DNA of 64,000 bases from positions 1 through 64,000 of the forward strand of contig CAKJVC010000152.1 in the NCBI GenBank assembly GCA_918026815.1, given 5' to 3'. A model generated the notes under the pieces. It did no database searches. It was not told where the DNA came from and was given only the letters and a program-made list of their open reading frames with translations. The stretch is from Chalara sp. BL73 (taxonomy: Eukaryota; Ascomycota; Leotiomycetes; Helotiales). Made by a program: the position numbers and the translations under genes. Below are positions 1-44,483 of this stretch, piece after piece; the stretch's first letter is position 1, and each line of letters opens with the position of its first letter.

Positions 1-303
1 CCTGCATTTGTTAAGACTTGAGGATCCAGAAAATCTGTCACAAACACGGTCCTATAAGCCTGAAAAGGCGGTTTGTGGAGTGCTTCAATAGGAAAATGCT
101 AAACTAAGGAGAAGAGGTGGGGCTCTGGGAAAGCTCTCGACTAAGTATGGCTCTCCGGACACATGCTACTAGTCCCAATTAGGAAACATACACGAACCAG
201 TTACATGCTAACCATGACAAGAATAGACAAGTAGGTTAACTATCAAATTCGGGACCTTGATTGTACTTTATATGCTATAGCTTTTGGTTCAGCATTCGTA
301 AGG
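1..303. other. No gene recognised
   Basis: No open frame with recognisable content, tRNA or repeat was seen here. It leads directly into the first LTR-like repeat copy. Confidence 0.5.
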
Positions 304-700
304 TGTAACAAACTGAGGGCAGCAGGAGGGATTGCAATATAACAGGTAGGGACACGTATGTTATAAGGGCAATGCAAAAGTAATAGTATTGTATTGATAT
401 GAAATGTAGGCCTTTGAATCTATGAAAAACTCAAGCTTGCCTTCCCTCAAGGAGTTCCAGCTTCTTTTTATATCCTGCGCCCCTCCACTGTGTTGTATTC
501 TTTTCCTAGAGTGTCGCCAAGCTTGTTACTTTAGTATCCCCGAAAGTGTTCTAACAGCTGAAGCCCACGACAGTCTAGGTCATACGTCCTTGTAGAATGG
601 CCGAAAGCCTATAGCTGCAAGCCTGTGGCTGGCTATGGGCTGTTTTCGCCGTCTGCAACCCTGAAGGTATTCTAGCAGCTGAAGCCTACGACAATCTACA
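304..700 (-). repeat. LTR-like dispersed repeat, copy A
   Basis: About 370 bp is clearly related to 7656-8030 in the same orientation. Shared blocks include ACAAAC-GAGGGCAGCAGGAGGG, TAGTATTGTATTGAT, the segment TAGGCCTTTGAATCTATGAA, and AACAGCTGAAGCCCACGACA. The left edge begins TGTAACA, which mirrors the TGTTACA right edge of copy B, as expected for LTR ends. Read on the minus strand, the terminus has the look of an LTR 3' end. The right edge is unclear: a block near AGCAGCTGAAGCCTACGACA (about 671-695) is duplicated, and the match then fades. It is probably a decayed solo LTR; no polymerase coding sequence adjoins it. Confidence 0.55.
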
Positions 701-1029
701 AGGCGGCATAGAAGAAGTATGAAGAAGTTACAGAGACTGCCAGGTTTACGTCTTCGGAAATACTTTCCTATATAATAAGTCTATGGTATTAAAATGCAAA
801 TTATATTGTTTATCATGAATAGAAGTATTATAAGGTGGGCTAAGTCCAACAAATTTACCATCCACAGTTGATATTCGTGCTCGAAGACGCGGGCCGACTC
901 ATTCCTTTCTGGCAGCTGTCCTGTCCAAAATATCGATATCCTCCACGGATACATCTTTCTCCGATCACAGCATTGATCCCCACCACCACTTCGGTGGAGG
1001 CAGACCTTGCAAGGAGACCTGGTGGTTGG

Positions 1030-1982
1030 TTACGTCCCATAGTCAACCTCGAGTGGTTCACGACGCCTGGAAGAGCTGGTTGAAGCTTGACATCCATCAT
1101 GAGTCGCTTCCAGACTAGTCAGGTTTGTCTCACTCTCCATCACAACTTTCGTGCTCTTGCAGCTCCTGGTAGGGTGGCCCATGCCCGCAGAGCTACTCCA
1201 TGGCTCATCGTGACCGCCTGGGAGAGACCCCAGTGTATGATTATTTTGTGGGTATTGCGAATACACCTTATTGCGTGTTGGCTGCTTGATGATGTCTACC
1301 AGCTTGTTGAGGATAATGAACTCTATCTTGAGTTTGATGCTGTACACAAGAGGTTGGTATGAAGTCTGGATATGGAGATGACCGGTATATTCGGTAATAA
1401 GAAGGCTGATGTCGAGGAGGATCACGAGGGTATTGATAATGGCGAGCTGCCGGACGACCTTCTGCGCCTTACCCCTTTGACGGTGATGACGGATTTCAGG
1501 CCGTGGTTTGCCTCCCATATGTAAAGGCCGGAAATGATAGATTCCTGGATGAAGAATACAGCCAGTTGCAGCCGTTCATAAACGTTGAACGCAAGGAGAA
1601 AATTATCGGGATCCAGGTTGCAGCCAATCCAGATGATTGTTAGGGGAATGTGCATAACGAAGAAGTTGGTGATAATCATGATGAGCACCCAGCGGGTTTT
1701 CCTTCTATTAGAAATCACGAGATGCAACCGCGAGTATAAGGCAACAGACTGGCCCGTAACCATTCCCCACCAGCTGATGGCCAAAAGGACGGCCATCGGG
1801 ACGTTAGGCGCGAGAGCAAAGAGTCGAAGCAGGTTAACGATTGCGTAGAAGACAGTGCCTAGAGTAGCGACGATCATGCTCCAGAAATATACGCCGGTAT
1901 AGCGCTTAAATGTATGAAAGACAAGGACAAGGATTTCTGCGCAATTGAGGCAAGCCATGGCAAATAAGCCTGCGATGGTCAT
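1030..1982 (-). pseudogene. DUF7703-like integral membrane protein, frameshifted
   Basis: The N-terminal frame (1982 down to about 1460) carries FKRYTGVYFWS and several hydrophobic segments. It ends at IWEANHGLKSVITVKG. The adjoining frame then continues with KAQKVVRQLAIINTLVILLD and a further membrane segment to the stop at 1030. This pattern resembles the fungal multi-pass DUF7703-type family (recognised from memory, family role unknown). The frame changes at a run of four G (about 1458-1465), and no splice-sized intron can bridge it without removing a conserved helix. A one-base deletion or a sequencing error is therefore the simplest explanation. The first Met (1982) may be internal: the same frame stays open upstream (GETGPISLPLSIS), so a small 5' exon is possible. 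Confidence 0.6.
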
Positions 1983-4900
1983 AGAGATGGATAAGGGAAG
2001 AGATATCGGTCCTGTTTCCCCGCCATACTGGCTTTTGGATATTGGCAGGCAGTTCGGCGTGCTGAAGATGACTGATAGCGGAGCTTATCGCACCTATAAA
2101 GAATGACACGGAAAGATGGATCTGGATGATACAGCTCTTAAATCAACGACTAAATGTCGAGAAAGAGGCACTTATGGCTATAACCACTAGGTGAGGGCAG
2201 AAAAGCTACGAAAAGGATAGAAGGAAAGGATGCGCGGATATGCAACTGTGTAAAAATAGTCACTACTTTTCGAGTGATCTTTCTCTATCACGGCACGGCA
2301 TATACCAATGCGCAGGTGAATGGAAGCATCCTTATTATCATCCAACGGAATATTTGCTTTATAGAGACGGACTTTCAGCCAACTCTTTGCATTGCATTTA
2401 AAGGTACGGCATTGTTTCCAAACCCATGCCACTGGGAAGCGGGGAAGGATTCCGGATGCTTGAATTCACAAAAATGACTAAAGAGGTCCGTGGAGAGCTC
2501 TCTGGGCATGGATGTTGAAAATCACTCTGACTCGGCTAATTAGGCTGTGAACAGATGCTTTGGTCAATATTGGTGGCAAAGCTCGCACCAGCTTATGGTC
2601 CGCCCTTTGCAGTACTGCTACAAAATCGAGACACTGCGACTTCGAGGATCGTCTGCGCCACCTCAGTCTCTATCATAATTACAAAAGAGGAACCAAGGCT
2701 TTAATATCTTGCCTTTATTCTGAGACGTTAGCCAGCATCCGCAACCGATCAATTGTTGAGGTGTTTTGACTCGTCCAACATTATTTTCTAACCTTAGAGA
2801 ACCCGGGCTACATTGAGCCTGCAGCTAAGAACCACAATCCTGCTAATTTATATACATAATAGCCCCATGGGATAGCACAACTCCCAGAGCACCCAGAGCA
2901 CCGAACAGTTAAAATCACGGTTAGAAGCCACAACTTGACTTCCGGCAGAAACTTGATAGGCGTTGGATGAATTTCGGATTTCTCCCCTCTACCCTGTCTT
3001 TAAATCTACGCCTCAAAAAAAAAGGGTTTCGGAAAATTCAGAGTAGCCGAGCACCGGGAATTAATTGATCAATCATCTGAATGACGAACCGCTAGAGTGG
3101 TGTTAACCAAGGACGGGGAATACCGCCAGGTGAGAGCGGGTAAGGCGCTTTTAGTATACAATAAGTAAGTAGTTTGCGGGGCGTGCCACATCTAAGCCAA
3201 GCCCTATCAGGCCCGGATCCTGGCGATGGCATCTCTCAATTTACATATTCTTGGATGTTCTCGAACCCGACCCTGATGCCGCCTCCCTTTCTGCGCTGCA
3301 GATCTGGTCGTTGCAGTGTGCGAGTTAGTATTATCGTGATATATCGACCCCTAAAAACCAATACTATATATATACCACGCAATATGAGATTTGGAATTTG
3401 TATACGTATTACAGCAAAACTTGCAATCTCATATTATATCACGCTATACCGCGATATACTACAACACTAACTCGTTCACTGAGTCGTTGGGGGCACGGAT
3501 CTGAATCTGGGAGACAGACTGGAGGGGTGGTCGGTTACTTGTCACAGGTAAGTCGCCTAGCCTATCATTATGGCCTGCTAATAAAGAGCAGCATCTGGGT
3601 ACTGATGATATCCGAGATGAGTTACGAAGTGTTGTACGAGACCATCTGACGGATAGATTGAGCTTCTTCGAACTTGATTATCAACCTTCGCAGAAACGAG
3701 GCAGATGGGTACTTGGATAGTATTTCTTGTAGAGCGTGGTTTGATCTTTTCCCCAATTCTCACACCTTTTGCGTTTAGATGAGTGAATATTCGGCCAAGA
3801 GTTCTGTGCCTGTTTAATGTGCAAATTTCATTGTTTCATGTATAGAATCTAGCAATTCTATCGATCGTTCCCGTTACTGCTGCAGAATTGCGAGAATTCA
3901 AATGTGAACCATTTGGCCAAGTACCTAGTATGCTTCCCGCCTCAAACAATTCCCTTGCAAGTGTCTTAAATAGAATTTGTTCGGAAGGTGGGGAAGTTCG
4001 GCTCGCTCCAAGTCCCGCATCGGCTGAGACACGGAAATCCCTATGCATGCAACTCAACCACACCTTCGGAATTGATGCGTACAGCGGCGGCCCAGAATTC
4101 TTACTCCATTCCAGGGGAACGGAAGCTTTAATGGACAATCAATGGACAACGTGAGCGGTGTTCTCCGTATCGCGACAACGGAAGCTAACCGCCATTCCAG
4201 TACTCGATCTCGGAAAGGGATCTCAGAGACCTGGGGTCCATGAAACAGACAACACCTTGCCGTACCTTACGCTACCGAATTTGGATGGGATTCGCTAGGA
4301 AAGTCAGCCCTCATCTATGGCCTTCTACTGGAAGGGCGGCAGCTTACAGGCGTCGGCAGAGTATGGCGGTGCCAAGATATTTCTCGGCCAGCCGAGCCGA
4401 CCCCGTGAGGTGGCAGCTGCAGGGGAGAGAAGACACAGTGGATCAACAAACAGGGTCTGTTAGAACATGGAATACGCAGTGATGATCAGAAGGTATTGGC
4501 GATGCAATTCAGGCACTCTATGACATGTGTGTTCAATCCAGATCTCTAGTCATTTGCATGAGAAAAGGTCTTCCGCGCTAGGGTCCTTTGCTTAGTTAGA
4601 GACATGTCAGCTACCTGGATCCTCAGATCCTAACAGGGTCGAAGTGGCTGAGTGAAACCTTGGGGAAGCAAGACTCTGCCCCGATCTACTGCTTGGCAAC
4701 CCGCTTCCAGCGACCCAGTGACCTGCCAAAACACCGCCGACCGAACCTCGGCAGATAGGTATTTGTATGGGCAGCAAGGAATGAAACTCAGGGTGCTGAT
4801 CGTGAAATCGTATTTGGAGAAGATAACATGGCAAGGGTCAACAGGCCTTTTCATCTGGTTTCCTATTGGCAACAGATACCCTGGCCTGAATTGTCCGCTT

Positions 4901-6105
4901 CAGGTTTTGATTGATGATCTGATTTTGGTGAACAATAATGGCTCACAGGGACTCAATGATCCATACACCAAAGTCCCTGCATGCCTAGACATGATTCAGA
5001 ACCCCTTTACAACACCGCCAGCAACATACCAAAAATGAACCACACTGACTCAGCATCCCGATGTATTATCAGCGGTACCACTTTATACTGACCAAATTAC
5101 CCCTAAAGCTTGAGAGCCTCATCGGAGAGTGAGCGCACCATTCGACAATGGCTCATTGTCCCGATACCCAGGTCTTCTTCGGCGGAGTCCTGATGAGCCT
5201 CTTCCATGAATTATAATCCCCTCTTGCAAATTGCTGCTCAGGCGTGTCTGCTAACCTTTCGCGGGTTGCTGTGAGGATCTGCGCTCATTCGAGATCGACA
5301 AATCGTGGGAGAAGGTGCATTCTGCACCACACCGACGGCTTCCTCGCTGGATGCTTCGACAAAGAGTGCCTCCTGTTGAAATAGAAGAAAAGAGTCACGA
5401 GGCCTTCAGAGAGAATGGGGACGAACCGGCGCTTCGTAGGAACTTCAAACCATGAACGGGAGAAAGCCTCAAAATTTGGCATTATCTGGTTCTCATGAGC
5501 AAAGGGATTGGAATCCAAGTTCGGAAAATTGGTGGCTTCACATTTATCACGAAAAATAGTCCTGAGATGTTTGGCATCGTCTATGGTAGGAGCCGCTCCT
5601 GGATTCCTGGGGGCAGTGAAGTACACCTGCCAATCTTTTCTTTACAACTGCTAAGCCCGAGGCTGAGCCCAGAAGACATCATCCTTCTTTTATACGAGAG
5701 GAAATATTGCCAAGCCAGATTGTTACTTGGCAACCCGGCTTAGCATTTTCCGTTCAAATGCCAAGACGCTAGAGACTACATAAGGCTCATAACAACCATG
5801 CAGCGTGCTCTATACGTAAGTACTTCGTGTAATTCCTAAATACCATAGGAGGGAGGGAAATGCGGGGAGCAGGATCTGTGGGATGAAATAAAGCTTAAGG
5901 CTATACCTTCCCTTCTACCAAAATAAACATACAGCAAGCTCCTCTAAGATGACCGACAGAGCAGTGAAATTGCATATAAACTTGATAGTCACTTGGACTT
6001 GGCTCTCTATCATCCACAGATCTTCCAGAATCAGCAAATTTTCCCAATCGAATTTTGCCCCAATTTAACCACATCACACATCAATATCCAGTCATTCTTA
6101 ATACA
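1983..6105. other. Gene-poor stretch, possible decayed coding
   Basis: No intact gene was recognised. Short open frames at 2187-2432 (minus), 3888-4154 (plus), 4652-5038 (plus) and 5285-5626 (minus) have no family I can name, and the frames around 3900-5040 drift as in old pseudogenes. A block of about 40 bp at 5381-5420 (GAAATAGAAGAAAAGAGTCA) recurs with changes at 6651-6690. Confidence 0.4.
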
Positions 6106-6513
6106 ATGCAGTTCACCAAAGTTTTCGTCATTTCCCTCCTAGGCTATCTTTCGGCCACTCCCGTCACCGCATATCCTGCCCGCGAATCCCAATCTCTCCA
6201 ATCCAGGGCTCCATCATGCAGCATTTCATCTGTCCTGGGAATAGTCCAGAAACTTGATAAAGCTCAGAAGAACCTTACAGAAATTCAGAAGAACATTCTA
6301 GAGGGCAAGAGGAAAGAAACCAAGAAATTTCTATCGACAGCATGCTCTGCCGTAGCAACAGGGAAGCCCGCGAAGCAGTGCCATTCAGGGAGCAATGTGG
6401 ATGTAGCTTCGGAATTGGTCCAGCTGATTTCAGCCCAGAGAGCGTATGAGGCGAGTCAGAAGTCGGTAGAAACCGCGTCCGCGGCTATGTGTAGCATTTT
6501 GAAGTTGGCGTAG
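6106..6513 (+). CDS. Small secreted four-cysteine protein
   Basis: The product is 135 residues from the ATG at 6106. That Met is preferred over the in-frame Met 51 bases upstream because it opens directly into a signal peptide (MQFTKVFVISLL, hydrophobic to about residue 22, cleavage near TPVTA). The mature part is rich in Lys, Gln and Ser, is mostly helical in character, and has four cysteines (38, 80, 92, 129), which could form two disulfides. A Lys/Glu-rich amphipathic stretch spans roughly residues 47-77. There is no intron. The general pattern resembles cell-wall galactomannoprotein or HsbA-type small secreted proteins, but I cannot assign a family. Size, secretion and accessory location make it a candidate effector, which is inference only. 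Confidence 0.65.
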   Translation: MQFTKVFVISLLGYLSATPVTAYPARESQSLQSRAPSCSISSVLGIVQKLDKAQKNLTEIQKNILEGKRKETKKFLSTACSAVATGKPAKQCHSGSNVDVASELVQLISAQRAYEASQKSVETASAAMCSILKLA

Positions 6514-7490
6514 GGTATTTGAGGCGTTTGTGGGCTAGTTCAAGTGTAGTTCAAGAATGGATCTCTGTTAAAAAGGTTACATAAACTGCGTTGATCAGTG
6601 AGGCTTGCGGCAAACCCTGGCAGCGGTGTATTTTTAAATGCATACTATGGAAATAGAAGAAGAAAGTCACGGAGCCTTCAGAAAGTATGGAGTAAACGAG
6701 CCAATTGCTGAAGGTTGTAAAACCTAAACTACAAGAGAGAACCTCTCTACTTATAGAGGTGTGATACTCACACGTGAGTATCACATACGACGTAGTGCAT
6801 ACGTAAGTAGATTCATCATCGAAGGCAAATGTATGTGTGCATCTTGCGCAAGCATACTTATAGCTTCCCCAATAGGCTAGGTATGATCCCTAGACCCAGC
6901 CTGTTTAACACATACTTACCCTTATGGCCCGTAGTGAGATTGCCAGGTCATCTAGGCGGTGCTTAGATAGAGGAGTCCCTCAATCTAGAGGTCCGATTTG
7001 GCTCCCTTATGCTATTCTAATTATAGGGACCGAACGGGGAGCTAAATTGAGACTTTTCTTATTTAATAATTTGGCTCCTCCCCTTTAAAGAAGAGGAAAG
7101 CGGCGATGGCGAGCTAAACTGGAAAGACGAGGAGAGAAGCAACATTTGCCTGCAGGCGTAATTTTGGGAACTATCGTATAGATAGGCTACTCGGTTGGAG
7201 GTATTGCGCGCAGGCCTATAGGTGGCGGAAGGCAAGTGGAGGGTGAACCGCTGGAAATGCTATGGTGAGCCTCAATGACAGAGTCTCCCCCTAGTGGCTG
7301 CACGACAAGTGCCCTAACCAAGGCCCTTTCGGCAGGAAAGCGGCTAGAGCTGGATCAGGCGCAGCACCTAGTTCTATATATGCAGACGCAACATGCAATT
7401 ACGAATAGGGCCAGCAATAATGCTCATCTTCGTGATCCAAAACTTACTAGGAATGCATGCTCCACTTTTCGCTGATGTTAGGTGGGTAAT
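6514..7490. other. Intergenic, no gene recognised
   Basis: This stretch holds a short imperfect repeat of 5381-5420 (at 6651-6690) and the palindrome described separately. Nothing else was recognised. Confidence 0.4.
6761..6784. repeat. Near-perfect palindrome, GTGATACTCAC arms
   Basis: Arms GTGATACTCAC and GTGAGTATCAC flank a 2-base spacer. The same core (GTATCAC facing GTGATAC) occurs at 7550-7567 and 9155-9173, so this is probably the end or junction of a small repeat family. Confidence 0.7.
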
Positions 7491-7573
7491 TGGTGTTACG
7501 TGCCCCGTGGGTAACCAACCTAGGCAATTGCAAAGTTATCAAAACCAAGAAGTATCACGAAAGTGATACTAAC
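7491..7573 (+). repeat. 80-bp dispersed repeat, copy 1
   Basis: It matches 9098-9180 over about 80 bp. Shared elements in order are GGTG-TACGTGCCC, GCAATTGCAA-GTTATCA and AAGAAGTATCAC, followed by GTGATAC. The second copy ends only a few bases before the start codon of the CorA-like gene. Confidence 0.6.
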
Positions 7574-7655
7574 AGCTTGTTTTTCTATTTAACGTCTAAC
7601 TAAAGGACCGTGTATAGCACGGGACCTTCTCCGAATTCGAAGATATGACGCTAGG

Positions 7656-8112
7656 CGTAACAAACAGAGGGCAGCAGGAGGGATTGTAATATAGCAGGTG
7701 AGCATACGGATAGTATGAGGGCACGTGACGAGCAATGCAAAAGCAATAGTATTGTATTGATGTGAAATGTAGGCCTTTGAATCTATGAAAGACTCAAGCT
7801 TGCCTTCCTCCGAGGAGTTATAGCTTCTTTTATGTCCTTCGCCCCTCGACTGTGCTGTATTCTTTCTCTACAGCCACCAAGCTTGTGATTTGCTTGTGGT
7901 TTGAATATCTCCGAATGTACTTTAACAGCTGAAGCCCACGACAGTGTAGGCCCTACGCCTTTGTAGTGGCTGCAAGCCTGTAGCTGGCCATGGGCGGTTA
8001 ACGCCGTTTGCAGCTCAGCTCGTTGTGTAGCTGACGACCGTAATTTCTCCCGTAAGGACTTTTATTCCATATCCGGGGTCTTGAACTGGTTTGACAGATC
8101 CTCGCTGTTACA
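7656..8112 (-). repeat. LTR-like dispersed repeat, copy B (probable solo LTR)
   Basis: The repeat runs from CGTAACAAAC to CTGTTACA, giving LTR-type inverted ends of about 7 bases. It is related to 304-700 in the same orientation. On the minus strand it starts TGTAACAGCGAGGATC and ends with a block around CAATACAATACTATTGC, the kind of terminus seen in fungal LTR retrotransposons (family comparison from memory). No internal retroelement domains flank it intact. Confidence 0.6.
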
Positions 8113-8580
8113 CCCAAATATCCCATATATAAGCTCCTAGAGGTTCGATGTGTACGTCGTCGATATAGGTACGTAAAGTTATTATAACGTTGAAAGGAAC
8201 GCGAGGAGCTACTTCTATAATTGAAAGTGTATTTGGAAGAGGCGCCGGAGAAGAAATATTAATAGGATCGTGAGCAAAAGGATCACTTCGAGGTGGTTCT
8301 TGATTCTGATCTACAAGCTCCTCTACAAGCTTGCTGACGTTCTCTGCCTTTTGCTCTACTCCTAGCTCTACCCTTGGCTCTACCCTTAACTCTACCTCTA
8401 GCACAACTTTCCCCGCAGGTAAAAAGCTATTTTGGCCTTTTTAGGTACTTTATTCGAAGCTTTCGTTACGCCAGCCGCGGCTTTTAATATCGAAGGAGAG
8501 GGGTTTTAGGGTTGTCTTTTAGCCTATTATCGACTCCTTTCGACTTTCTGGCCGACCTACGAGGTGGCATCTTATAATAG
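8108..8580 (-). pseudogene. Remnant of a basic-N-terminus ORF next to the LTR
   Basis: On the minus strand a frame opens at about 8572 with MPPRRSARKSKG, but it is interrupted by stops. A second open frame (8404-8108, 98 residues, acidic, with VELRVEPRVEL-type repeats) follows and ends at the LTR edge. The basic start is reminiscent of gag-like or other mobile-element proteins, but no diagnostic motif remains. Confidence 0.3.
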
Positions 8581-9097
8581 AGAACTAGTTGGTCAATTTA
8601 AACCACTATACAAACCATCACGAGGCATGGTTGCGATACAGTTGAGGATTAACCGACAGATTTACTGATTTACATTTTTTGGGGTGGCCGGCCAAGCAAA
8701 AAGCGGTGACCGCCTTAAAAATCAGGTTTTGGAATGCTATGATATCGTAACAAACACCACTCGCTTATTGAGTAAGGCAGGGCCGAACCGAGTAGTCAGC
8801 TCCACAGTCAAATTCAGCCTCTAGCTAATTCCTGTCTAAACCTCTCCAGAGCGTCCAACTCGACAAGACAAGCATTGACTGCAAATATATATCCATTAGT
8901 AATTCATCTCCAGTTATCTCCGTCTGTGCCATTTCCATTAAAGCAATTGTTGGTATGCACAAAGCAAGATCACGTGAATACCCCGCGACGCCCGGACCAC
9001 ATGAATGTATTATAAGTTTTGAATGTGGCAATAGCGAAGAACCAAGAACAAGCCAACCACCTACAACGAGCATACTGGCACTGCGCAAAGATCGCGG
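8581..9097. other. Intergenic, nothing recognised
   Basis: The open frames on both strands here (8825-9160) overlap the 80-bp repeat and show no family features. Confidence 0.4.
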
Positions 9098-9180
9098 TGC
9101 TACGTGCCCAGTAGGTACTGACTTGAGCAATTGCAAGTTATCAGAAACAAGAAGTATCACTTATAGAGTGATACAACAGC
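9098..9180 (+). repeat. 80-bp dispersed repeat, copy 2
   Basis: This is the counterpart of 7491-7573. It ends with GTATCAC-(TTATAGA)-GTGATAC and sits immediately upstream of the ATG at 9182, so the native promoter or leader of that gene may have been replaced. Confidence 0.6.
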
Positions 9181-9181
9181 A

Positions 9182-10713
9182 ATGCTTCATGCCGTCTTAG
9201 AGGGTGAGGCTGTTGAACTTGATGGCAAGAAGCGCCAGGCTAGCGATGGTTTCAGCGACCCCGACTTGGAAGAGATATGGAGAGAAATCTTGCGACCTCG
9301 CGCAGCAGAAGATGAGAGCTTTGTAGCCAAGTACTACCACTGGAATCGACCAGTATCTGTTCCAGGCTTGCTCTTTGGCAGACCTCGTATTTGGCTGTCC
9401 TGGGGATACAAAACAGCGTACCCAAAGCTCGCAAACTTCTTGGATAATACCTCCTTGGACAGCAAACTTCGATCACAGGTTATACTGGAAGAGATAGAAA
9501 CAAACAAAGGCCGATCTCAACGCCGGAAATTTCGATACAATGAAGCCCATGCCCCGATTGCTGTTATCTTCGATGCTCTGAAAGAATTTCCGACAGCGGT
9601 GGGAGATGTAGAGCATTTGGCGAAGAATGTCAAGAATACAGCGCTTACAAAGGGGTTGTGCGTATTCTTCATATCACTGACATATCGCCGTTAGTGCTGA
9701 GTTGCATTTTCGGAACAACTTCAAGGTTCGTTGCTACAGCCCAAGTTCCCACTATTCACGCTGATTTTCCTTCGCAATCCACAGCTTTGATATCAGCCAC
9801 ATTGCTGCTTTTGTTGAGAGACACTTAAACCGCTCAAATTGGGCAAAAGCGAACTTGCTGTCGATTAGACGTTTGGTGCGTATGAATCTTTTCAAGATCA
9901 CTTACATAGTGCCTGCAATCCTGACACTTCCAGGGCTGGTCCTCTTTTATCTATGAATATCACTTTTCTTTCTATTACGTGACTCTGGACTATTTTGAAA
10001 GCGATTTGATCAAGCCTGATCCCCGAAGGATCCGGAGGTCTTGCTCATTTGGAAAAGCAAAGAATTCAAAACACCGTTATATCCATGAAGAGACCATTTC
10101 ATTCCTGTTGTGTGGACACTTCGATAACGTATTCTGTTGCTATCAACTGGCCGATGCTTACTTCAAGCCGCGTTATGCAAAGGACACGGGGCCTCGAGTT
10201 TTTCGTTCTTATGATCCAAATCAATCTCCGGGTCAATTACTATTGTATTGGATTGCGGTGGCATTGTTTCACGCAAGATCGAGGTGGGAGAATGCCATTG
10301 AATGTCTAGACTCAGAAATCATATCTCCGGTATTTCCAACCTATCTCCTCTACCTGCATATTTTCTAAACTTGTGCTTATAGTCTGATGTCGTTTTCATG
10401 GAGGACAGGAATGGTTAGTAACTTCTGTTTGATCTGAGCGATATTTAGGAAGCTGACACTGGCAGATTTGATGGCGGATGATCCCCAGTTCTCTCTATCC
10501 AAAACCTATTTCTGGGCGCTTCAGACATATAAGCTATTCGAGGTACACATACAGCTTGTTCCTATGATTGTTTTACTAATAAAAATAAAAAAAAACTGAT
10601 AAAACTTTTAGCTAGGGTTAGAGCGAACCATTACTACATGGGAAAACTTTAAGAATCATTCAACGCCTAGAGGTAGCACAATACTACCTTATGCAAATAA
10701 AACTAAGCTATAG
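9182..10713 (+). CDS. CorA-like fungal protein, six exons, C-terminally truncated
   Basis: Exons inferred from splice sites and frame are 9182-9657, 9785-9875, 9934-10329, 10383-10413, 10466-10542 and 10612-10713. All joins keep one frame, giving about 390 residues. Recognisable stretches include YYHWNRPVSVPGLLFGRPRI, FVERHLNRSNWAKANLLSIR, GWSSFIYEYHFSFYYVTLD and QFSLSKTYFWALQTYKLFE. They match a family of uncharacterised fungal proteins that normally end in a CorA-type magnesium-transporter-like pair of membrane helices (recalled, not searched). Here the frame stops shortly after TTWENFKNHSTPR, before any such helices, and the following kilobase is AT-rich. The gene is probably truncated and may be non-functional. 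An 80-bp repeat abuts the start codon. Confidence 0.55.
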
Positions 10714-11797
10714 TAGATTACTCTACTCTGCGTGTGATGTTACTGAATTTAAGAATATTTAAAGCCAGCAGTAGTATATAAAAACCGAATCTGTAGTGTA
10801 ATATTATATAGATGGCTTAGCTAAGTCGAAACATAATAATTCTGTGTTGTGAAGACACTAAAAGACAAATAAGTTACGGATAACCCTAACTCTCATCCAA
10901 TAAAGTAGCTTTGTGACTTTTGCCATTGCTTTAGGTCTCCGCAGCCCTGTATATACCATAGTTTATAGCAAAGTGGAAGAAATAAGAGTAATACTATTAC
11001 TTTGTACGACCGTATGCTAATACTAGCGTAGCTGGCGGCGTTTAGAACTATACCTATTCTTCACCCGCATGAGAAAACATGAGAAAACAATGCTGAACTA
11101 CCCGCAATTGTTCGATATTGCAATCTAATTATATCGATGCCTACAAGCGAGATGAGCTTGGTATAGCACATGATGGTAGTAGATAGGACATGTCAGAGCT
11201 AACTTCTAGCCTATGAATAGATATAGGCGAACCTAAAGAATAAGAGTTAGAAACCCTGTGGCCAGCAGGTCTAGGATAGACAGCTTAATATAGTCATAGC
11301 ATCCTTAGCCGGCCGGTTGTAACAGGGTTGAAACATAGGTGCATCTTTATAGCTTCGGATTATTTTTCGTACGCGGCTATCCTGAGTAGCCTCGCTTCAA
11401 ATTGTACTGGGATTTCCATCTCAAATTAAATCCCTTTGTGCAAGCCACACCCCTTAGGAAGCTGTGGGGCGTTCGCTACAAAGCTCATCACTACTATGGA
11501 TAGTGTGTTAACTCCTGAGTTTGAGCTGTTGACAGTGGTATTATCTCCTCGCTCGCAGTCTCATGCATTTCCCGATAATCGTAGTCCGTTTTCCTGCCGC
11601 CTGGTTGAGTGAGGTACCCCGTGTTTATGACCGTCCACACTGAAAAGAAGCCAGGTCTGGGGCAGCCTCGAAGGCATAGAAGAATATCTCATTATGTGGT
11701 AATTTCTTATTGGCCTCAAAAACCTGGGAGAGCTCAATCATTCGATAACCTATCCTTAGGAAGAGAGCACCCAGACTAAAATATAGTGCGAACGATA
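10714..11797. other. AT-rich intergenic stretch
   Basis: No gene was seen. The sequence is AT-rich from about 10550 to 11000 and contains many stop codons in all frames. Any missing 3' part of the upstream CorA-like gene could not be traced here. Confidence 0.45.
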
Positions 11798-12549
11798 TTA
11801 CTTGCCACCGTGGCCATGCGTGGTTCTGCCGTTGTGTATTTTTGCCTTAGTCATAGTTAACCAGAACTTGATGACCAGTCCAAACAGGCAAAGCACGAGG
11901 GCTTCTTGAATTCCGATAGTTCCTATATAAGTTTTGATCCCTAGCCACTGAGTTTCAGGAGGATTTCCAGTCGCAATCATTGCGCAAGCAATTAGTTGCA
12001 CGATTGCGAGAAGCGGAATGCTTATCATAAAAGCCCGCAAAATGGCTAGGGAGGTGATATCCCTATATTTCTGTCATGCTTATAGAATTTCACCATGTTT
12101 ACGAACAGCAGGCAATCGAATGCAGTAACCACTACATGGCGATCAGTCCGAGGCCACCAGATCTACTGCGTGGGGTTTCCAAAAAAAAAAAAAAAAGGGG
12201 GGCTAACATATCGGGCCTACTAGCACCATTGTATCAGAGAACGCAGCGATCTGGATGTTCTGTTGGTGGCGAGTTCCGACAGTACGTGCAATATAACCTG
12301 CTAATATACAAGTCGACGCGAAGACAGCGAATTTCTGAAGACCACTTTTGGGATGACGAACAGCTTGCACGAGGTGGCCCAGTAGTATGGTAGCTGCAAG
12401 GGAAGAGAATATCGCTGCTGCAGTGAAGGAAGGATAGTACATTTTCCCATAGTAGCCGCAGGTCCCAGGCGGCACCCAACCGTTGCTGTCAGGTTTGATA
12501 GTACTTGTGCATTCAGGTATGCTGGAGACTGGCGTAGGGAGAGTCATGG
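11798..12549 (-). pseudogene. RTA1-like membrane protein, internally deleted
   Basis: The 5' part (from about 12549) reads VPPGTCGYYGKMYYPSFTAA, then a membrane helix, LGHLVQAV, and GYIARTV. This is the order of the first two helices in RTA1-family lipid-translocating exporters (seven-helix proteins linked to drug resistance and lipid transport). The 3' part (12040-11798) has the final-helix pattern, with MISIPLLAIVQLIACAMIAT and IQEALVLCLFGLVIKF. Only about 160 bases lie between them, including a 16-base T run on the minus strand, whereas the family needs three or four more helices there. No splice arrangement restores these. The most likely reading is a pseudogene with an internal deletion. 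Confidence 0.55.
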
Positions 12550-13374
12550 AAGCGACAATGGTTGTTTTCAAAATACGCTCTGCGCATCGATCAGTGAACC
12601 TGTGAAAATGCCTGTGTTACGGATTTGCGTCTTGGACATGGAAGTATTCTTACCTTGGCGGTGAATGGATGGGACGACCCGCTGCTAAAGCACCCCACCT
12701 ATCACGGTTTACAGTATGCAGAATAGCTTTATGCAAGCTACTCCATTCCCTACGTAGTAACGAGGATGGCAGTGGAAAGTGGAAATGTGTTTCGGTTTTG
12801 GTCTGAGGCGGGGCTGTGCCGTAAGAATCGAGAGAGTCTCACTAAGTAAGAATTCAGTGGAGAAATTATCGGATAATTCTGCCAAGGCTCGTAAATAGTA
12901 CCCATATTCTTCAGCTATGTCCTTTATTTTAGGCAGGTGATAAGGCCTGTGTCGGACAACAGGTCAGCTCAAAGAGCACATGGAGCAGAATAATATGACA
13001 CATACGCCACCTTGGTACATGGGCTATTTTCGCGTTATATCCTTGCTATCGTGTGGTAATACCGAATGGCTTATTGGGAACAAATTAAATTCGTGACATA
13101 GATAATTACACAGTTCAGGAATCGCAAGATTAGTTTTTGCACGAGAACTAGAAGTGGCACTTATAGATATTGATGTAGACGATCGAGGCATATGCCTTGC
13201 TCAAATTGTAGCTTAAAGCTGATTGCTAGGCAAAACCAAGAGGACTATTAGCCACATTGAACAGATCTAATGTTCTATAAATTAGGCCAACCGCCTAGAA
13301 AACTCCACGTACGAGTGCCACGTAAGTAAATCACAGCAAGCTTCGGGCTTGATATGTGGTCATATCTGAGTCGA
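12550..13374. other. Intergenic, nothing recognised
   Basis: No gene, repeat or RNA was recognised between the RTA1 relic and the precursor gene. UstYa-type HxxHC motifs were looked for by eye on both strands and not seen. Confidence 0.4.
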
Positions 13375-13810
13375 TTAAGCCCTGTCGATATATGTAATAT
13401 CTAGTAATCAGAGATAAGTATAAGTTGTTGTATTAACACCGAGATTTATTTTACCATATATCTGAGGTACGGCCTCAGCGTCTGCCTTAGCAGCTCTTTT
13501 ATCAATGTACGTAAGATCTAATAATAAAAGATTAGTATGCATCGCTGTTTTAATGTGAAGATCGACTTTACCAAAAGTCTGAGGTACGGCCTCAGCGTCT
13601 GCTTTAGCAGCTCTTTTATCAATATAAGTAAGATCTAATAATAAAAGATTAGTATGCATCGCTATTTTGATGAAAATCGACTTTACCAAAAGTCTGAGGT
13701 ACGGCCTCGGCGTCTGCCTTAGCAGCTCGTTTGTCAATATAGGTAAGATCTAATAATAAAAGATTAGTATACATCGCTATTTGGTGAAGATCGACTTTAC
13801 CAAAAGTCTG
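13375..13810 (-). repeat. Tandem exon-intron repeat array within the precursor
   Basis: About four units of 114-117 bp each contain one 63-nt exon and one 51-54-nt intron. Exons and introns are similarly conserved between units, which shows duplication at the DNA level with the splice sites inside the unit. The terminal unit (intron 13401-13454, exon 13375-13400) has diverged most. Confidence 0.85.
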
Positions 13811-13912
13811 AGGTTCACGGGCGGTCACCTCTCCTGCCTTAGGGCTCAAAGGTGCTGCAATGGCCAATCCAGCAGCAAGGCTGAGCATAGCGGCGATGCA
13901 ACGGAACTGCAT
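13375..13912 (-). CDS. Secreted Kex2-processed repeat-peptide precursor (dikaritin-like RiPP)
   Basis: Five exons are inferred: 13912-13801, 13749-13687, 13634-13572, 13517-13455 and 13400-13375. Each intron starts GTAAA, carries TACTAAT (introns 1-3) and ends TTATTAG or TTACTAG. Together they encode 108 residues. A signal peptide (about residues 1-20, MQFRCIAAMLSLAAGLAIAA) and a short pro-region come first. Three identical-length 21-residue units follow, each consisting of DLTYID, then KR, then AAKADAEAVPQTF (the last unit has PQIY). The protein closes with DITYID-RA. KR is a Kex2/KexB site, so processing would release several copies of a peptide ending (T/I)(F/Y)D(L/I)TYID. This is the architecture of ustiloxin, phomopsin and asperipin precursors, whose Tyr/Phe-containing cores are cyclised by UstY (DUF3328) oxidases. 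No such enzyme was recognised here. A pheromone-like precursor is the main alternative, but there is no CaaX end and the acidic aromatic core fits RiPPs better. Confidence 0.8.
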
Positions 13913-16104: not shown

Positions 16105-17543
16105 ATGGCGGAGGGACCAGTCCCTGAGTCTACCTCCGCCTCACGGCAAAAGAGTTGCAACACTTGTGTGAAAGCCAAACGAGGCTGCGACAAACGCCAT
16201 CCAGTTTGCTCAAGATGCGAGGAGAAAAGGATTTCATGTATCTATGCCAAGCGAACATACAACGAGGCTTTCCAAAGTGGTTTTGACTTGAATTCAATTG
16301 AGTCAGATCTGTACTGGGCGGAATCAACTGCTCCATCGTCATCGATCAATTTCGCTGACGAAATCCCATCTGGCTCCGCCACTTCGGCCAGACTGGATAC
16401 CACACACCTACCGACCCCCTATGCACCATTCATCAACCCCCTGTTCCTCACCTTCGCTGAGAACCGATTTACGTCAGCGGGCGACATGCAGCCCAGCAAC
16501 TCTGCCGGTGGGCAGCTCAGCCAACAACAGGAGAAAGAACAGGCACTCAGCACGTTTGACTATGCTCAAATGGCTGATCTATGTGTTTGTCACTACCTTG
16601 TGAAGTCGTAAAAAAGGTCACCGCTAATATTGAAAAAAGATACAATATGAGCCATGGCAGGTTTATGACCCCAACACCAAGGTGCATTTCATTGTACAAA
16701 CCCTGAAAGGTTATCCCTGCACCTTTGCCAAAGATAGCCACACGCCATGGATGCATAGATATTTGTATAAAGATCAAATGCCATCTTCAATAAGGTCCTG
16801 CTTCACTGTCAGTGCACTTTACACCAACATGACCAGCAGTAACAAAACTTCAGTATTTAGAGTTCTTTGCCAAAGTATGAACGAGCTGAAACGACAGCCG
16901 TTGTCCAACACTCCCCAAGAGAAGCTAGCTAGAGCTCAGGCACTATTCTTATATCAGGTGATTCGTTTGTTTGATGGAGATCCTACTCTAAGATCCAATG
17001 CCGATCGAGACATGCCCTTGTTGCAGGGTTGGCTAAATGAATTGTGTAAGATTAGAGAGAACCTTAAGCCGCCAGAGAGGTTGAATAGTGTTGACATGAG
17101 AGGGGATCCTAATCCTCCAAGATCGTGGGAGGTGAGTACTGTAGAAAAGATTTCCGACCCTTTCTCCCATTCCCCTTACTAAAGGCTGAAAGTGGTGGAT
17201 ATTTGCTGAGTCTGTCCGACGAACTATCGTCATCGCTTACGCATTTCTGGGGCTGTGGAGTATAATGTGTAAAGATCATGATGGTATGCTACTGTCTTTC
17301 GCATTCGTGGGCGATGCATTTACTAACATGCGTGGTAAAGCTACGTTTTTTGATGCCTGGAAATACCCTCACCGCTGGACCATTTCTCGTCCCCTATGGG
17401 AGGCCCCATCGTCCTTCGACTTCTTTCTGACCCGGAGAAACAAAGCTTATCATATTATTGAAAATTTTGATTTTGAGAGCTTCCTCAAAACTGGGATAGG
17501 CGACGATGTCGATGATTTCTCCAAAGTTCTTATGGTAACGTAG
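16105..17543 (+). CDS. Zn2Cys6 fungal transcription factor
   Basis: Exons are inferred as 16105-16584, 16640-17131 and 17193-17543, giving 440 residues with all joins in frame (introns of 55 and 61 bp, the second with TACTAAA). The N-terminus has a canonical binuclear cluster, C18-x2-C-x6-C-x6-C-x2-C-x6-C45, followed by a basic RTYNEAF linker. The rest (FDYAQMADLC-IQYEPWQVYD, then RAQALFLYQVIRLFDGD and WWIFAESVRRTIVIAY) matches the middle region of a large fungal regulator family that often sits in secondary-metabolite clusters. It lies 2.2 kb from the repeat-peptide precursor and could regulate it (inference). The C-terminus may be prematurely stopped: the frame-shadowed text PPAARVCLLTNLVTWAW just after the stop looks like family sequence. 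Confidence 0.75.
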
Positions 17544-19300: not shown

Positions 19301-19409
19301 AAATTCCCGACTACACGCCCAATCTCCAATATGATCGACTTCTTACTTTACTACCACTCACAAGAACAAGATTTCTTATTCAATCCCACGCTCACCACCA
19401 TTAAACAAC

Positions 19410-20181
19410 ATGAAAATTATCCTCTTAGGGAGCACCGGCTCCGTCGGCAAAGAAGTCCTCAACCAGTGTCTGAAAACCCCTGCTATAACCTCCATTATCG
19501 CGCTTTCGCGCCGCAATCTCCCTGAAGCAACCGCAAATTCGAAACTTACCGTAATAATCGTTGAGAATTTCAGATTTTATCCTGACGCTCTTTTAGAGCA
19601 AGTGAAAGGCGCGGATGCTTGTATATGGTACGTCTAAGTAATTGCGAGTTGATTTCATGATGCTGACCATGGAAGGTCGATTGGAACGTACAATTGGAAT
19701 CCCGAGGTGGAGTTAGAGTATCCAGAAGCTTTTCAGAACGCGTTGTTAAAAGTCTTGGATGTCAAGAAGACGTTCAGATACGTTTACCTTGGCGGCGCTT
19801 TCACGGAGCCGGACCAGGAAAAGTCTTTATGGCTCTATGCTAAAGGACGACATGTGCGAGTACGTCCTTCTTCATCCCCATACAATACCTTGCATTCTCC
19901 ATGGTTTTATACGCTGACTCTCCCAGGGGCTCGCTCAGACAAAGTTCCTGGAGTTTGGAAAGCAGAACCAGAATGTGGAGACGCATGTTGTGAAGCCAGC
20001 GGCATTTCTAGCGAAGAATGGAAATGGTCTCCTGGGATGTTTGTTATGGAAGTTTTGGTTGTGGACAGATGAGGTGGCAGCAGTGATGGTAGATCTGGCT
20101 GTGAATGGTGGGAATGAGCAGGTAATAGTGAATAAAGCCATCGTACAGAGAGGGAGGGAGCTGTTGTCGAAGCAGAAGTAG
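19410..20181 (+). CDS. NAD(P)-binding Rossmann-fold protein (atypical SDR, HTATIP2-like)
   Basis: Exons are inferred as 19410-19627, 19676-19859 and 19927-20181 (introns of 48 and 67 bp, phases agree), giving 218 residues. The N-terminal MKIILLGSTGSVGKEVLNQC has the GxxGxxG dinucleotide-binding loop. The middle has NWNPEVELEYPEAFQNALL and FRYVYLGGAFTEPDQEKSLW. The last exon gives ETHVVKPAAFLAK and ends RGRELLSKQK. This is a common fungal family of NAD(P)-dependent epimerase/dehydratase-like proteins with unknown substrate. The length suits the family and all exons look intact. It may be a tailoring reductase for the neighbouring peptide locus, but proximity is the only evidence. Open frames in the other two frames over exon 3 are shadows. 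Confidence 0.8.
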
Positions 20182-21026
20182 TAGGTGAATTAAAGGGAAA
20201 GTCTTGGCGCGTATGACTCTACGTCTATGAATCTTAGAGTTTAATTTGAAGGATCATGCGCTACGTTGTACTCAGAGCAGACTAAATAGCCAAACTTCAA
20301 AAGAGATATATAATAGGTAACAATGTGCCAACAATCGTGTATTGAAGTGAGAACGTTAATGGGCCTCATTCAAACAATAATGCGGTACTACTAAAGATTT
20401 TAAAAAGGATACTCTCTAAACAGTTATCATCCAATAAAGAAAACTCACAAACACATAGTTTAATTTAAATGCGCACCAAAGTACTATCAGGCTGTTAGTA
20501 TGTCTTGCGTTTAATAACCTGAAAGCCAGGAAGAAAGCGAATGCGGCTTTTTAAATGCGGTTAGCTATAAGGCTCCAGCGGATGTGAATATATGCTTTAA
20601 TTTAGAATAATTAAAGGCCCTAAGGCGAGCGAGCTTCTAGCTAGACGGGCAGTTCTTTGCTGCAATTGTGGCTGCTTCCCACAACCACTCCGCTGTCATC
20701 AATCTCGCCATGCTCTGAATTCTGGACTGAAATCGCAATTCGTGCCATCATTAGAATCGCTCCTAGATGGCACATTCCCTGTAAGGAACCAAGATCACGC
20801 AAGACGAGTGGTAGCCGCAAATAAAGTGAAATATAACCTTTGTAATATATTGATGTTCTATTGTCTAAGGAACGAGAAGGCTTGGAAAGCAACTGGCTAA
20901 GGTGTCTAAGATGTAACACTAATGACTATGACCAACATTTCCTATCCACACCCTCTCTTCCCACCTGGCGTTGGGGCTTTGGAACTACGCCCTGCTAGAC
21001 GATCTTGTAGTGTAAATCGAGGAAGG
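20182..21026. other. Intergenic, nothing recognised
   Basis: This is AT-rich sequence between two convergent genes (plus-strand reductase, minus-strand dynamin). A 92-residue minus frame at 20641-20919 has no family features. Confidence 0.45.
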
Positions 21027-39388: not shown

Positions 39389-39543
39389 ACTTGACTCACA
39401 CCGACGACAAACTCCTCAGCTCTAGAATAGATGGACCACGTCAACCTAGTGCCATCCCTCATCCATCTTTGATCTTAGTTCTTCCTTCTTCTTCTTCTCT
39501 CTGTCGATATGTATTGTTCTAGTCCCCCACAGAACTGGAGTCA

Positions 39544-41501
39544 ATGGCAACACATCATGAACGTCCAATGTCACTCCCGCCTGAGCATCCAGCCCAGGAC
39601 TTCGTTGAGCTGCACTCATTTACATCCTACATAGGCGTCGCGCCGGAGGTTCGAGACCAGGACCTGACGGACATGAATGATTTCTCTCATGATATCTCAG
39701 ATGTTGATATGGAGTTGTACCATAGCCACCTTGCAGCCTTAACAGATGGTAACCCTTCCTCGCCTGATTGGATGCAGGACTGGGGATACTTGGACAGCAC
39801 CACCTCCGTGTGGAGCACCAGTATCGCTTCCAACTCGGCTCCATCCATTGCCGACTCGAGAGTATCGAGTGACAACGTCTCTCGGAAGGCTCGAAAGCCG
39901 AACCCGCGCCTTCCCGGCTCCTCAATCCGCGTGTTGGAGACCTGGCTAACTAAGCATGCCAACTCCCCATACCCGACCGAGGAGCAGAAGGCTCGGCTTC
40001 AGAAAGCTACCTGTCTCAGTCGAGGTCAGGTATCAAATTGGTTCTCGAACGCAAGGAGGCGGGGAAAGGTCAAGGTCTTGACTCCGGATCCCACCTTAGG
40101 CACGAGTTATCATCCTTACACGGAGCTGGAATTCCCGGATTTGCAAGAATTACACCCATTCTTCAGATGGTTAAGACTGGGGCCAGAACACGAAGCCGCA
40201 TCACTAGAGCATATCTTAGAAGCCGTAAAACCATTGACCAAGTTAGAGCCTCTATATCGCCTTCCTAATGTGAGAAGCAGATGCAGAAATAAAGACTGGA
40301 AGTTCTCTCATAAACACGGCTCCTCAGTATCGAGTCTCGAAATCCGCTCATATGGGTCATTGATTTCCTCGGCATGCGATGAGCCATTAACCATTGCCCA
40401 TGGCTCTACACAATACAACCGCCACCGATACCGCTTGGACGAGAGCACGCGTGAACAATCCAGGAAGTTTCATTGTACATTCTGCCCAAAGAAGTTCCGG
40501 ACAAAACATGATTGGCAACGCCACGAAAAGTCCCAGCACCTTGCTTTGGAGAAATGGATTTGCGCACCAAACGGAAGCATTAATGTTCACCCTCAAACGA
40601 ACCAGATTACGTGCATTTTCTGCAACGCGATTGATCCATCACCGGAGCATATCCAAGGGCATAGCTACACTGCATGTGCCACGAGGCCATTGTCCGAGCG
40701 CATCTTTCTCCGGAAAGATCACCTATGCCAACACTTGCGGCTCACGCATGGGATCCCCACATTCCGAGACTCGATGCGGAGCTGGAAAGTTGTAATCAAT
40801 GAGATTAAGTCAAGGTGTGGATTTTGTGATAGAGAGATGGGAACCTGGTCGGAACGTGTTGAGCATTTGGCAAAGCATTTTACTGAAGGGGTATCAATTG
40901 CAGAATGGACGGGAGATTGGGGATTTGATGCAAATACTCTTAGCATGCTGGACAATGCTTCCCTCCCAGGATTATATAACAACCAGGAAGCCTCATCAGT
41001 TGTATCAGGTGTGGCGTCAACTGTGGAGACAGAGTGGAGAGACGAACGATCAAGGTTGGTCTCAAACTCAAAGCCATGATAGTGAAATGATGATTGACTA
41101 GCTCCAGTACCAGTTCATATTCAAACTTCTGCTTAACTACTGCATCCACTTGGTTGTCTAGCAAATCGTCTCCAGGCCCTGGCGAGTTCATGCCACCTCT
41201 CGATCTCGAGGAATATCCTGAAGGCGGCTATAATTTCATGCTCCCACCAAGTAACTTTCTAGGTAACCTCGGTTTGGATATTCACCCCACGATCACAGAA
41301 AGAGACTTTTTGATTGGCCCAACTACCCATAGTACAGGAAGCGAATATGCTGGCAACGACTTGCACGAATTTGACAGTAACGAAATGATCCGTTGGGACA
41401 TTCCTGGACAAGAGACTATAGCTAAATCGCAGAATTCAACATCAGACCAGACCTTGCTGGCTCTTTATCGAGAATTCTGCCATGCGGAACCTGAACAATA
41501 G
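39544..41501 (+). CDS. Homeobox plus C2H2 zinc-finger transcription factor
   Basis: Two exons (39544-41054 and 41102-41501, intron of 47 bp, phase 2) give 636 residues. A TALE-type (KN) homeodomain spans about 115-174: PNPRLPGSSIRVLETWLTKH, the loop SPYPTEEQKARL, and recognition helix VSNWFSNARRR. A C2H2 finger (FHCTFCPKKFRTKHDWQRHE, about 309-332) follows, with more Cys/His pairs (ICAPNG..ITCIFCNA, FLRKDHLCQHLRLTH, RCGFCDREMGTWSERVEHLA). This homeobox plus C2H2 arrangement is known in fungal developmental regulators. The C-terminal exon is acidic and Ser-rich, a possible activation region. The gene looks intact; the exon 2 join is supported by phase and a GATTGACTAG branch/acceptor region. 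Confidence 0.88.
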
Positions 41502-41862
41502 TAACTAGGAAAAGACAGTCCAAAGTTATGGGCACAAAAGGTAACAACGCGTAAATTAGACTACGAAGAGAGGCATGTTTTACGCCAAAATTACAAGGCA
41601 CGGAACGGTCCGCTCAACTAAGGTGAATCCCAAGCACTTCTTTGTGTGTCGGTCTGCCGTAGTTCACATTTCTATTTGGCCCACCAGCAAGCTAATAAAT
41701 TTCAACGCATTCACTCATCGCCGCACTTCACCATGCAAGCGAAATCGAACAATAAATTCCACGACCACAATTCAACTCTGCACCAGTCACTTCACACAAG
41801 GCCCAAACAGAGGTCATTACAAAAGATTTCACCACCAACAACCGAGTGCTATAGGTATCGCA

Positions 41863-42444
41863 ATGGCGTTGTATGACCAAATATCCACTACTCAAACTAC
41901 CACGTTCCTTTCATCTTCATCTATCATGCGCCAAACTCAGCGCCCAAAACAATCTCGCTTTTACGAAGACGCAGACGACCTTCATTCCCCACATCCACCA
42001 CGTCGACTCAGCGTCTCCCCAAACGGCACACCGAGACCGATCGATGATAACAAGCCAAAGAGGACCAATAGCTATTCCAAGCTGGTTGGGAAGATCAAGA
42101 GAAACCTGAGCTCTAGGGAGACGGATAATGCTATGCGCATGCGCTTCCAGAAGGAGAGTGGGGATGGCGTAGAGGTGAAGGAGAAGGCTAGGAATGCACT
42201 CGTGAAGGAAAAGAAACCCCCTAAGGTGAAGCGCATCTTGAAGAAGGTCAAAGCCTTGAGGAAGCAAGCATCTACAACACTGGAGGAGATGTCGCGGTCT
42301 TCATCGAGTACTACTTTTGTGGGCTGTTCAGGGTTTGGAAGGCAAGATTGGAGTGGATATCTAGACATTGCTGATGATGAGGTGGTTGAGAAGGAAGCGA
42401 TGTTTGGAGAAGAAGAGGGGTATCAAGCAGATGTTGATGAGTAG
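41863..42444 (+). CDS. Uncharacterised basic protein
   Basis: The product is 193 residues if started at 41863 (MALYDQISTTQ). The frame is open back to 41575, but the upstream part reads like non-coding sequence, and a third choice is the Met at 41926. The central part is strongly basic (KPKRTNSYSKLVGKIKRNLS and KEKKPPKVKRILKKVKALRK) and the end is acidic (DIADDEVVEKEAMFGEEEGY). No named domain is recognised. The PPRRLSVSPNGTPRP segment looks like a phosphorylated linker, and nuclear location is plausible. It is in the same direction as, and close behind, the homeobox gene. Confidence 0.55.
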   Translation: MALYDQISTTQTTTFLSSSSIMRQTQRPKQSRFYEDADDLHSPHPPRRLSVSPNGTPRPIDDNKPKRTNSYSKLVGKIKRNLSSRETDNAMRMRFQKESGDGVEVKEKARNALVKEKKPPKVKRILKKVKALRKQASTTLEEMSRSSSSTTFVGCSGFGRQDWSGYLDIADDEVVEKEAMFGEEEGYQADVDE

Positions 42445-44033: not shown

Positions 44034-44483
44034 GATTATAGCTTTGTAGACAAAAAGAAAATTCAAAGAGGCAGGACAATCAAGAAGCAAACAGCAAAAA
44101 TTGTAGATGACTATAAGTGAAAGATCGGGCGTTGGACATCTTTGGGTGAAAGGTTAGTCACGTAGAGATACACAGTTGGACTGGCGATAATATGTGGGGA
44201 ATGATAAATCTGATAAGGCTTGGCATCGTTCAGCAAGATATGTGTCAATTGTACTCGCCTTCCATCGCAAAACCTATGGGATTGGGGGTCTTTTGTACAT
44301 ACCACTCATTCTAGAAAATTGTCGAGTAATTTGCTCACGGACAGTTGCTCTATGTTAGGATGGGTATTGCTTGAGTCTAACACAAGAAGTGATATGACAA
44401 GCACAAGAAACCAGGTTGGTTTCTGAGCACAGGTGAAAATGGATTGCATCGAATAGTCACAAATTACTTAAATATAAACTTAT
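44034..44483. other. Short intergenic spacer
   Basis: This lies between the DUF4202 start and the HET gene stop (both minus strand). Nothing was recognised. Confidence 0.5.

Follow-up and report, generated by a model that had tools for sequence, protein, structure and literature searches.

The window, i.e., the whole stretch of 64,000 nucleotides of Chalara sp. BL73 DNA analysed here, consists of the first 64,000 bases of a contig of 70,525 bases, referred to as C131. On its minus strand, at 13375-13912, a gene of five exons and four introns can be modelled (Table 1), the exons of which join to 327 nt, that is, to 108 amino acids plus a stop. Tandem Repeats Finder describes 13450-13814 as a tandem repeat with a period of 115 and 3.2 copies (92% matches, score 600). 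The product starts with a hydrophobic N-terminal secretion signal, as judged by eye, followed by a short pro-region and then by four ‘cores’, the first three being identical, QTFDLTYID, and the last being QIYDITYID. An earlier, sequence-only reading of this DNA had anticipated such a spliced, five-exon product with signal peptide and repeats, and its count of four DL/ITYID cores holds as well. The Y/I variant, which that reading had placed in the last copies, is found instead in the last core only. Its assignment of a KR site to each unit likewise stands in part: KR follows cores 1 to 3, but core 4 ends as ID-R-A-stop, and what precedes core 1 is a single R (AR-EP) rather than KR. Cys was sought in the cores and is present in none of them.

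Table 1. Features of the precursor gene, its neighbours and the matching contigs (positions are those of the window unless a contig is named)
Feature	Position	Strand	Basis or remark
Stretch equal to C129:165009-175680	1..10662	.	99.75%, 18 gap openings
Stretch common to window and C172	10658..19339 = C172 8698-1	.	99.6%, 4 mismatches, 14 gap openings
RTA1-like gene (membrane protein), in pieces	11497..12616	-	C172 copy of second part PF04479, 8.3e-15
Precursor exon 5: core 4 end, R-A, stop	13375..13400	-	gene model
Intron 4, 54 nt, divergent from the other three	13401..13454	-	gene model
Precursor exon 4, 63 nt: core 3 end, KR, spacer, core 4 (variant) start	13455..13517	-	
Intron 3, 54 nt	13518..13571	-	gene model
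Precursor exon 3, 63 nt: core 2 end, KR, spacer, core 3 start	13572..13634	-	
Intron 2, 52 nt	13635..13686	-	gene model
Precursor exon 2, 63 nt: core 1 end, KR, XA/XP spacer, core 2 start	13687..13749	-	
Intron 1, 51 nt, inside first Asp codon of core 1	13750..13800	-	gene model
Precursor exon 1: signal peptide, pro-region, core 1 first half	13801..13912	-	gene model
Zn2Cys6 regulator gene, at least first parts	16105..17182	+	PF00172, 5.5e-06, in 16105-16611
UstYa gene, 310 residues	C172 10104-9099	-	PF11807 8e-56; outside window
UstYa gene, 252 residues	C172 10698-11666	+	PF11807 6.6e-34; outside window

Each of the four cores is built from two exons, the introns being inserted, in all four cores, after base 1 of the first core Asp codon. 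All of these introns begin with GTAAA and end with TAG. Introns 1 to 3 contain TACTAAT, its last base 13 nt short of the end of the intron, a motif which is absent from intron 4. Between any two of introns 1 to 3 there are 3 differing positions and 1-3 gap columns, and intron 4 differs from them in 17-19 of 54 columns. While introns 1 to 3 thereby vary in length through indels (51/52/54 nt), exons 2 to 4 are constant at exactly 63 nt (63/63/63), each running from phase 1 to phase 1, so that the skipping of one exon would keep the frame. Eight codons vary among exons 2 to 4, six synonymously and two non-synonymously (binomial P = 0.004 for two or fewer non-synonymous codons of eight, with the non-synonymous proportion assumed to be 0.75). 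The numbers are small, but the pattern of exon and intron variation is what would be expected from selection on the spliced peptide.

A search with the spliced precursor protein found three relatives. The best of these (P0001), from Bisporella sp. PMI_857 (Helotiales), is 88% identical over the whole length and is annotated as spliced, with four cores kept, all of them continuous in the annotation. A profile search, which scored the 8000 candidates with the most words in common, brought this to 17 relatives in all (E up to 1), two of which are weak (E of 0.12 and 0.82). Periconia macrospinosa, of the Pleosporales, is among these, and 15 others (P0003 and P0060-P0073; sources ena, jgi and lgn) are presumably environmental. 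The core common to the relatives, [FY]-D-[ILV]-[ST]-Y-[IV]-D, is conserved into Pleosporales, with T/S-Y-I/V-D seen in every core compared (one reads Y-M). The conservation of Tyr and of basic sites on which the earlier reading depended is found, that is, relatives keep the core Tyr and most keep a basic site as well. Within the Chalara genome itself a paralogue search with P0002 as query returned no match, an empty answer which, from such a search, carries no weight.

Traces of the intron position may be recognized among these relatives. The protein predictions P0003 and P0060-P0073 are, 15 of 15, truncated at or reading through the first core Asp codon. Either the frame ends or departs there as ..[WFY]YG or SFG, at the expected start of a GT donor, or instead the core Asp is preceded by unrelated residues, and some of the 15 proteins show both marks. 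Where both marks surround one core (P0003, P0060-P0062, P0067, P0071), the read-through is of 16 or 18 residues, which would imply intron lengths of 51 or 57 nt, similar to those of the present gene (51-54 nt). The mark is found in one of five cores in P0060 and P0061 and in one of four in P0062; here it is four of four. Because all 15 predictions are affected at this same codon, the intron appears to be conserved and old. A second intron site, at the last Asp codon of the core, is hinted at by P0067, P0069 and P0072, and possibly by P0073, in each of which the last core leaves the consensus at the closing Asp (..TYIG.. or ..TYMY..). With a spliced homologue annotated in Bisporella, and with the intron position shared, the predicted splicing of the four core-splitting introns is supported.

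Translation of the introns throughout is ruled out, as retention of intron 2 shifts the frame and retention of intron 4 brings in a stop. Neither intron 1 nor intron 3 contains a stop or shifts the frame, and a product retaining one or the other alone may for that reason be possible. From a different perspective, such retention might be by design, i.e., this could be a working dikaritin-like precursor in which introns 1 and 3 add segments and splicing sets the mixture of peptides, as the symmetry of exons 2 to 4 would also allow. Such design nevertheless is quite improbable, given the frameshift and stop just described, the differing of intron lengths among copies, and the continuity of all Bisporella cores.

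Turning to the ends of the peptide, the residues between KR and Gln can be read as dipeptides, in register from the Kex2 cut, and 31 of 31 such dipeptides in the present and Bisporella precursors are XA or XP, though 15 of the 31 belong to three identical spacers of the present gene and hence are not independent. Bisporella spacer substitutions fall at X alone, and its sole insertion is one whole dipeptide. In a census of 46 cores or core halves from 18 proteins, from which cores lacking a predicted first half were skipped, Gln occupies the predicted start in 43. It is immediately preceded by R-(XA/XP)n in 30 of the 46, and it directly follows Arg, with no spacer, in three (P0070 twice, P0071). 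The 13 cores outside of both patterns include all three of Periconia, which have no Gln, as well as eight K-S-D-P, one R-EAA-Q (P0067) and one R-EADS-Q (P0068). Given spacer register and census, the mature peptide is probably a nonapeptide which starts with Gln and ends with Asp, and the suggestion by the sequence-only reading of a start at F/Y is replaced by this one. Calculated linear [M+H]+ values are 1115.526 for QTFDLTYID and 1143.557 for QIYDITYID, with cross-links lowering these by 2.016 or 4.031 and pyroglutamate by 17.027. The genome has one match to Kex2-type genes and five to DPPIV-type genes, the latter on three contigs.

A profile search of the genome contigs for UstYa (PF11807, i.e., DUF3328) gave 89 exon-level matches, so that DUF3328 genes, which the earlier reading had said should exist somewhere in this genome, are indeed there. 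These matches are spread over more than 30 contigs, forming a large family, and given their number there may be many other peptide clusters in the genome. None of the 89 is on C131, the window's own contig. The repeat unit of the precursor is found on C172 as well as on C131, and nowhere else in the genome, with the 538-base precursor stretch identical on the two (C172 5423-5960). Less than 5 kb past the stop of that C172 copy are two UstYa genes, both intact, i.e., open after splicing. Each encodes two HxxHC motifs, as do 52 of 56 UstYa homologues, the other four having one; PDB sequences, searched with one UstYa homologue as query, gave no matches. The precursor stop is 3.1 kb from the stop of the first UstYa gene and 4.7 kb from the start of the second. 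The RTA1-like gene, the first part of which matched no family, lies between the precursor and the UstYa genes, and the Zn2Cys6 regulator is found to the other side of the precursor. Of 39 genome matches to tyrosinase (PF00264), none is on C131 or C172.

The two contig matches of the window (Table 1) overlap by five bases, 10658-10662, and differences between the window and either C129 or C172 are mostly single-base indels. Past C172 8698 the sequences of C131 and C172 diverge. Most simply, C131 is probably an assembly chimera joined at 10658-10662, with the true neighbours of the precursor being those of C172, and it would be for this reason that the UstYa neighbours are hidden in the window. 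A real rearrangement, e.g., between nuclei, may instead be responsible. The flank at 19340-20340 has no near-identical copy elsewhere in the genome, its one other match being 243 bases at 72%. A DNA search with the first 10,660 window bases was uninformative, as its 40 matches all were to dispersed repeats (identity 72-91%) and the C129 copy was not among them. Contigs C62/C181 and C41/C107 carry paired UstYa matches of equal scores and lengths, in each case on a large versus a small contig, which suggests further redundancy in the assembly. Also seen on C172, some 30 kb beyond the cluster, is a block of 14% G+C (about 40,000-45,000), and G+C is low again at 50-55 kb (24%) and at 65-70 kb (28%). 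Elsewhere in the window are a HET-domain protein (44484-46619; 1.1e-31), a KN-homeobox protein (39523-41079; 1.6e-16) and, at 5989-6513, an open frame of 174 residues with a secretion-signal-like stretch; that frame matches Pfam Flg_bbr_C at 2.6e-12 over 32 residues only, a family name that is unexpected in a fungus.

Small indels separate C131 and C172 in the genes neighbouring the precursor, and a decaying or silent gene, within an unstable contig end, might be suspected. This is very improbable, however, as the precursor stretch itself is identical on both contigs, the differences among its repeats are biased towards synonymous ones, four cores are kept in Bisporella, and both UstYa genes are open. 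As to whether precursor and UstYa genes go together in other fungi, the Bisporella precursor (88%) and a Bisporella UstYa protein (93%) have longest contigs of identical size, 821,261, and for two more relatives the longest-contig sizes, 77,022 and 6,602, recur as well among the 56 UstYa homologues. Such identity can be read, indirectly, as linkage in 3 of 17 precursor relatives; none was seen for the remaining 14.

The precursor resembles those of the dikaritins (ustiloxin, phomopsin, asperipin-2a; also victorin) in being secreted and multicore, with Kex2 sites and a Tyr per core, and in having UstYa/DUF3328 genes beside it, on C172 though not on C131. It is unlike them in that its conserved Tyr is third from the core C-terminus rather than N-terminal, and in that its cores are split by introns; no intron within a core of this kind of precursor was mentioned in the literature titles or abstracts searched. 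Its spacers are Ste13-type, unlike those of ustiloxin and phomopsin, the precursors of which, in the portion of PMC6339444 drawn on here, are not predicted to be processed by Ste13. Ustiloxin and phomopsin are described as needing tyrosinase, unlike the present case with none on C131 or C172, and for asperipin-2a one DUF3328 gene is described. The epichloecyclins (gigA, Epichloe), compared by description only, are cyclic nonapeptides from imperfect repeats with isoleucine before tyrosine, as in the Ile/Leu-x-Tyr link proposed below (PMC9233826, in part). The definition of a KEP applies as well, i.e., a signal peptide, by eye, and repeats flanked by KR, RR or KK. The DUF3328-linked KEP type which lists Periconia, G-8, is ruled out, being a di-histidine type according to the portion of PMC7329392 cited. 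A full-text literature search with the core strings found only papers with titles on unrelated subjects, the supplementary KEP tables, where the Periconia member may be listed, lying outside its coverage.

Alpha-pheromone precursors of ascomycetes also have a signal peptide and Kex2 sites followed by XA/XP dipeptides. By anatomy the present precursor could be described as that of a dikaritin released in the manner of alpha pheromones. A mating-pheromone gene as such is rejected, as unlike in those precursors the core is without Cys and UstYa genes adjoin, but it is kept as a model of processing. There might be, alternatively, a linear pheromone-like KEP, with Kex2, Kex1 and Ste13 releasing linear nonapeptides and with the UstYa neighbours acting on something else. 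All 31 of the spacer dipeptides are compatible with this, and in Ascomycota the Ste13 signature is said, in PMC6339444 as excerpted, to be reserved in general for alpha pheromones. The same excerpts describe Leotiomycete pheromones as having two conserved Cys, however, which the present cores lack, and according to the parts of PMC7329392 cited DUF3328 genes almost never are found near pheromone genes, yet two adjoin here. A linear KEP is viewed as unlikely. DUF3328 genes are near 1758 of 7878 KEP genes. From those same parts of PMC7329392, they are near 3 of 216 putative fungal pheromones (one being from Rutstroemia sp., with the DUF3328 gene two genes away), near 0 of 227 yeast-type pheromones, and near 17 of 76 KEPs that are homologues of Ste13-type proteins from Basidiomycota. 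Given the 3 of 216 and the 17 of 76, the combination of Ste13-type spacer and DUF3328 neighbour is rare, yet with precedents.

The dikaritin-like precursor proposed by the sequence-only reading is largely supported, by the adjoining UstYa genes on C172 and by homologues keeping the core Tyr, and the gene likely is the precursor gene for a RiPP cluster of dikaritin-like type. This explanation is based on a gene model under apparent selection, two intact adjoining UstYa genes on C172, a core conserved into Pleosporales, the register of the spacers, the Gln starts of the census, Kex2- and DPPIV-type genes in the genome, and the sharing by 3 of 17 relatives of longest-contig size with UstYa homologues. 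Against it are the lack of UstYa genes on C131 and of tyrosinase on C131 and C172, a core 1 with no preceding dibasic site and a core 4 with no following one, the 13 of 46 cores which are off-pattern, and the 14 of 17 relatives with no UstYa linkage seen.

Production of the dikaritin-like peptide would begin with splicing out of the four core-splitting introns, a predicted step which comparison with relatives supports. The signal peptide would then direct the product into the secretory pathway, with Kex2 and Kex1 predicted to cleave at basic sites. A Ste13-like dipeptidyl aminopeptidase could next trim the dipeptides AA-KA-DA-EA-VP (EP for core 1), which would leave nonapeptides with Gln first, QTFDLTYID three times and QIYDITYID once. 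Gln might, speculatively, become pyroglutamate. The two neighbouring UstYa-type oxidases would cross-link the peptide, most plausibly by joining the invariant Tyr of T-Y-I-D to a nearby aliphatic residue, e.g., the Leu or Ile two positions before. The presumptive product is a secreted and probably cyclic peptide.

More tentatively, and with rather less than even confidence, this may be an undescribed peptide family of Helotiales and Pleosporales that combines Kex2/Ste13 release of Gln-initiated nonapeptides with UstYa cyclisation, i.e., a living pheromone-to-dikaritin intermediate, with cores cut by an old intron and with every repeat here a symmetric 63-nt exon, such that splicing could tune both the number and the kind of peptides. 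If true, then the family joins two systems that have been held separate, pheromone-style release by Kex2 and Ste13 and cyclisation of the UstYa type. A 2022 review asks, in the portion cited (PMC9233826), whether duplicated mating-pheromone genes gave rise to the dikaritins, and such an origin becomes testable with a precursor that has UstYa neighbours and a spacer of the pheromone type. With its ends and masses predicted, the product is directly searchable. The intron inside of the core, with all 15 of the predictions noted above truncated at or reading through it, suggests as well a reason for which searches based on repeats might overlook genes of this kind.
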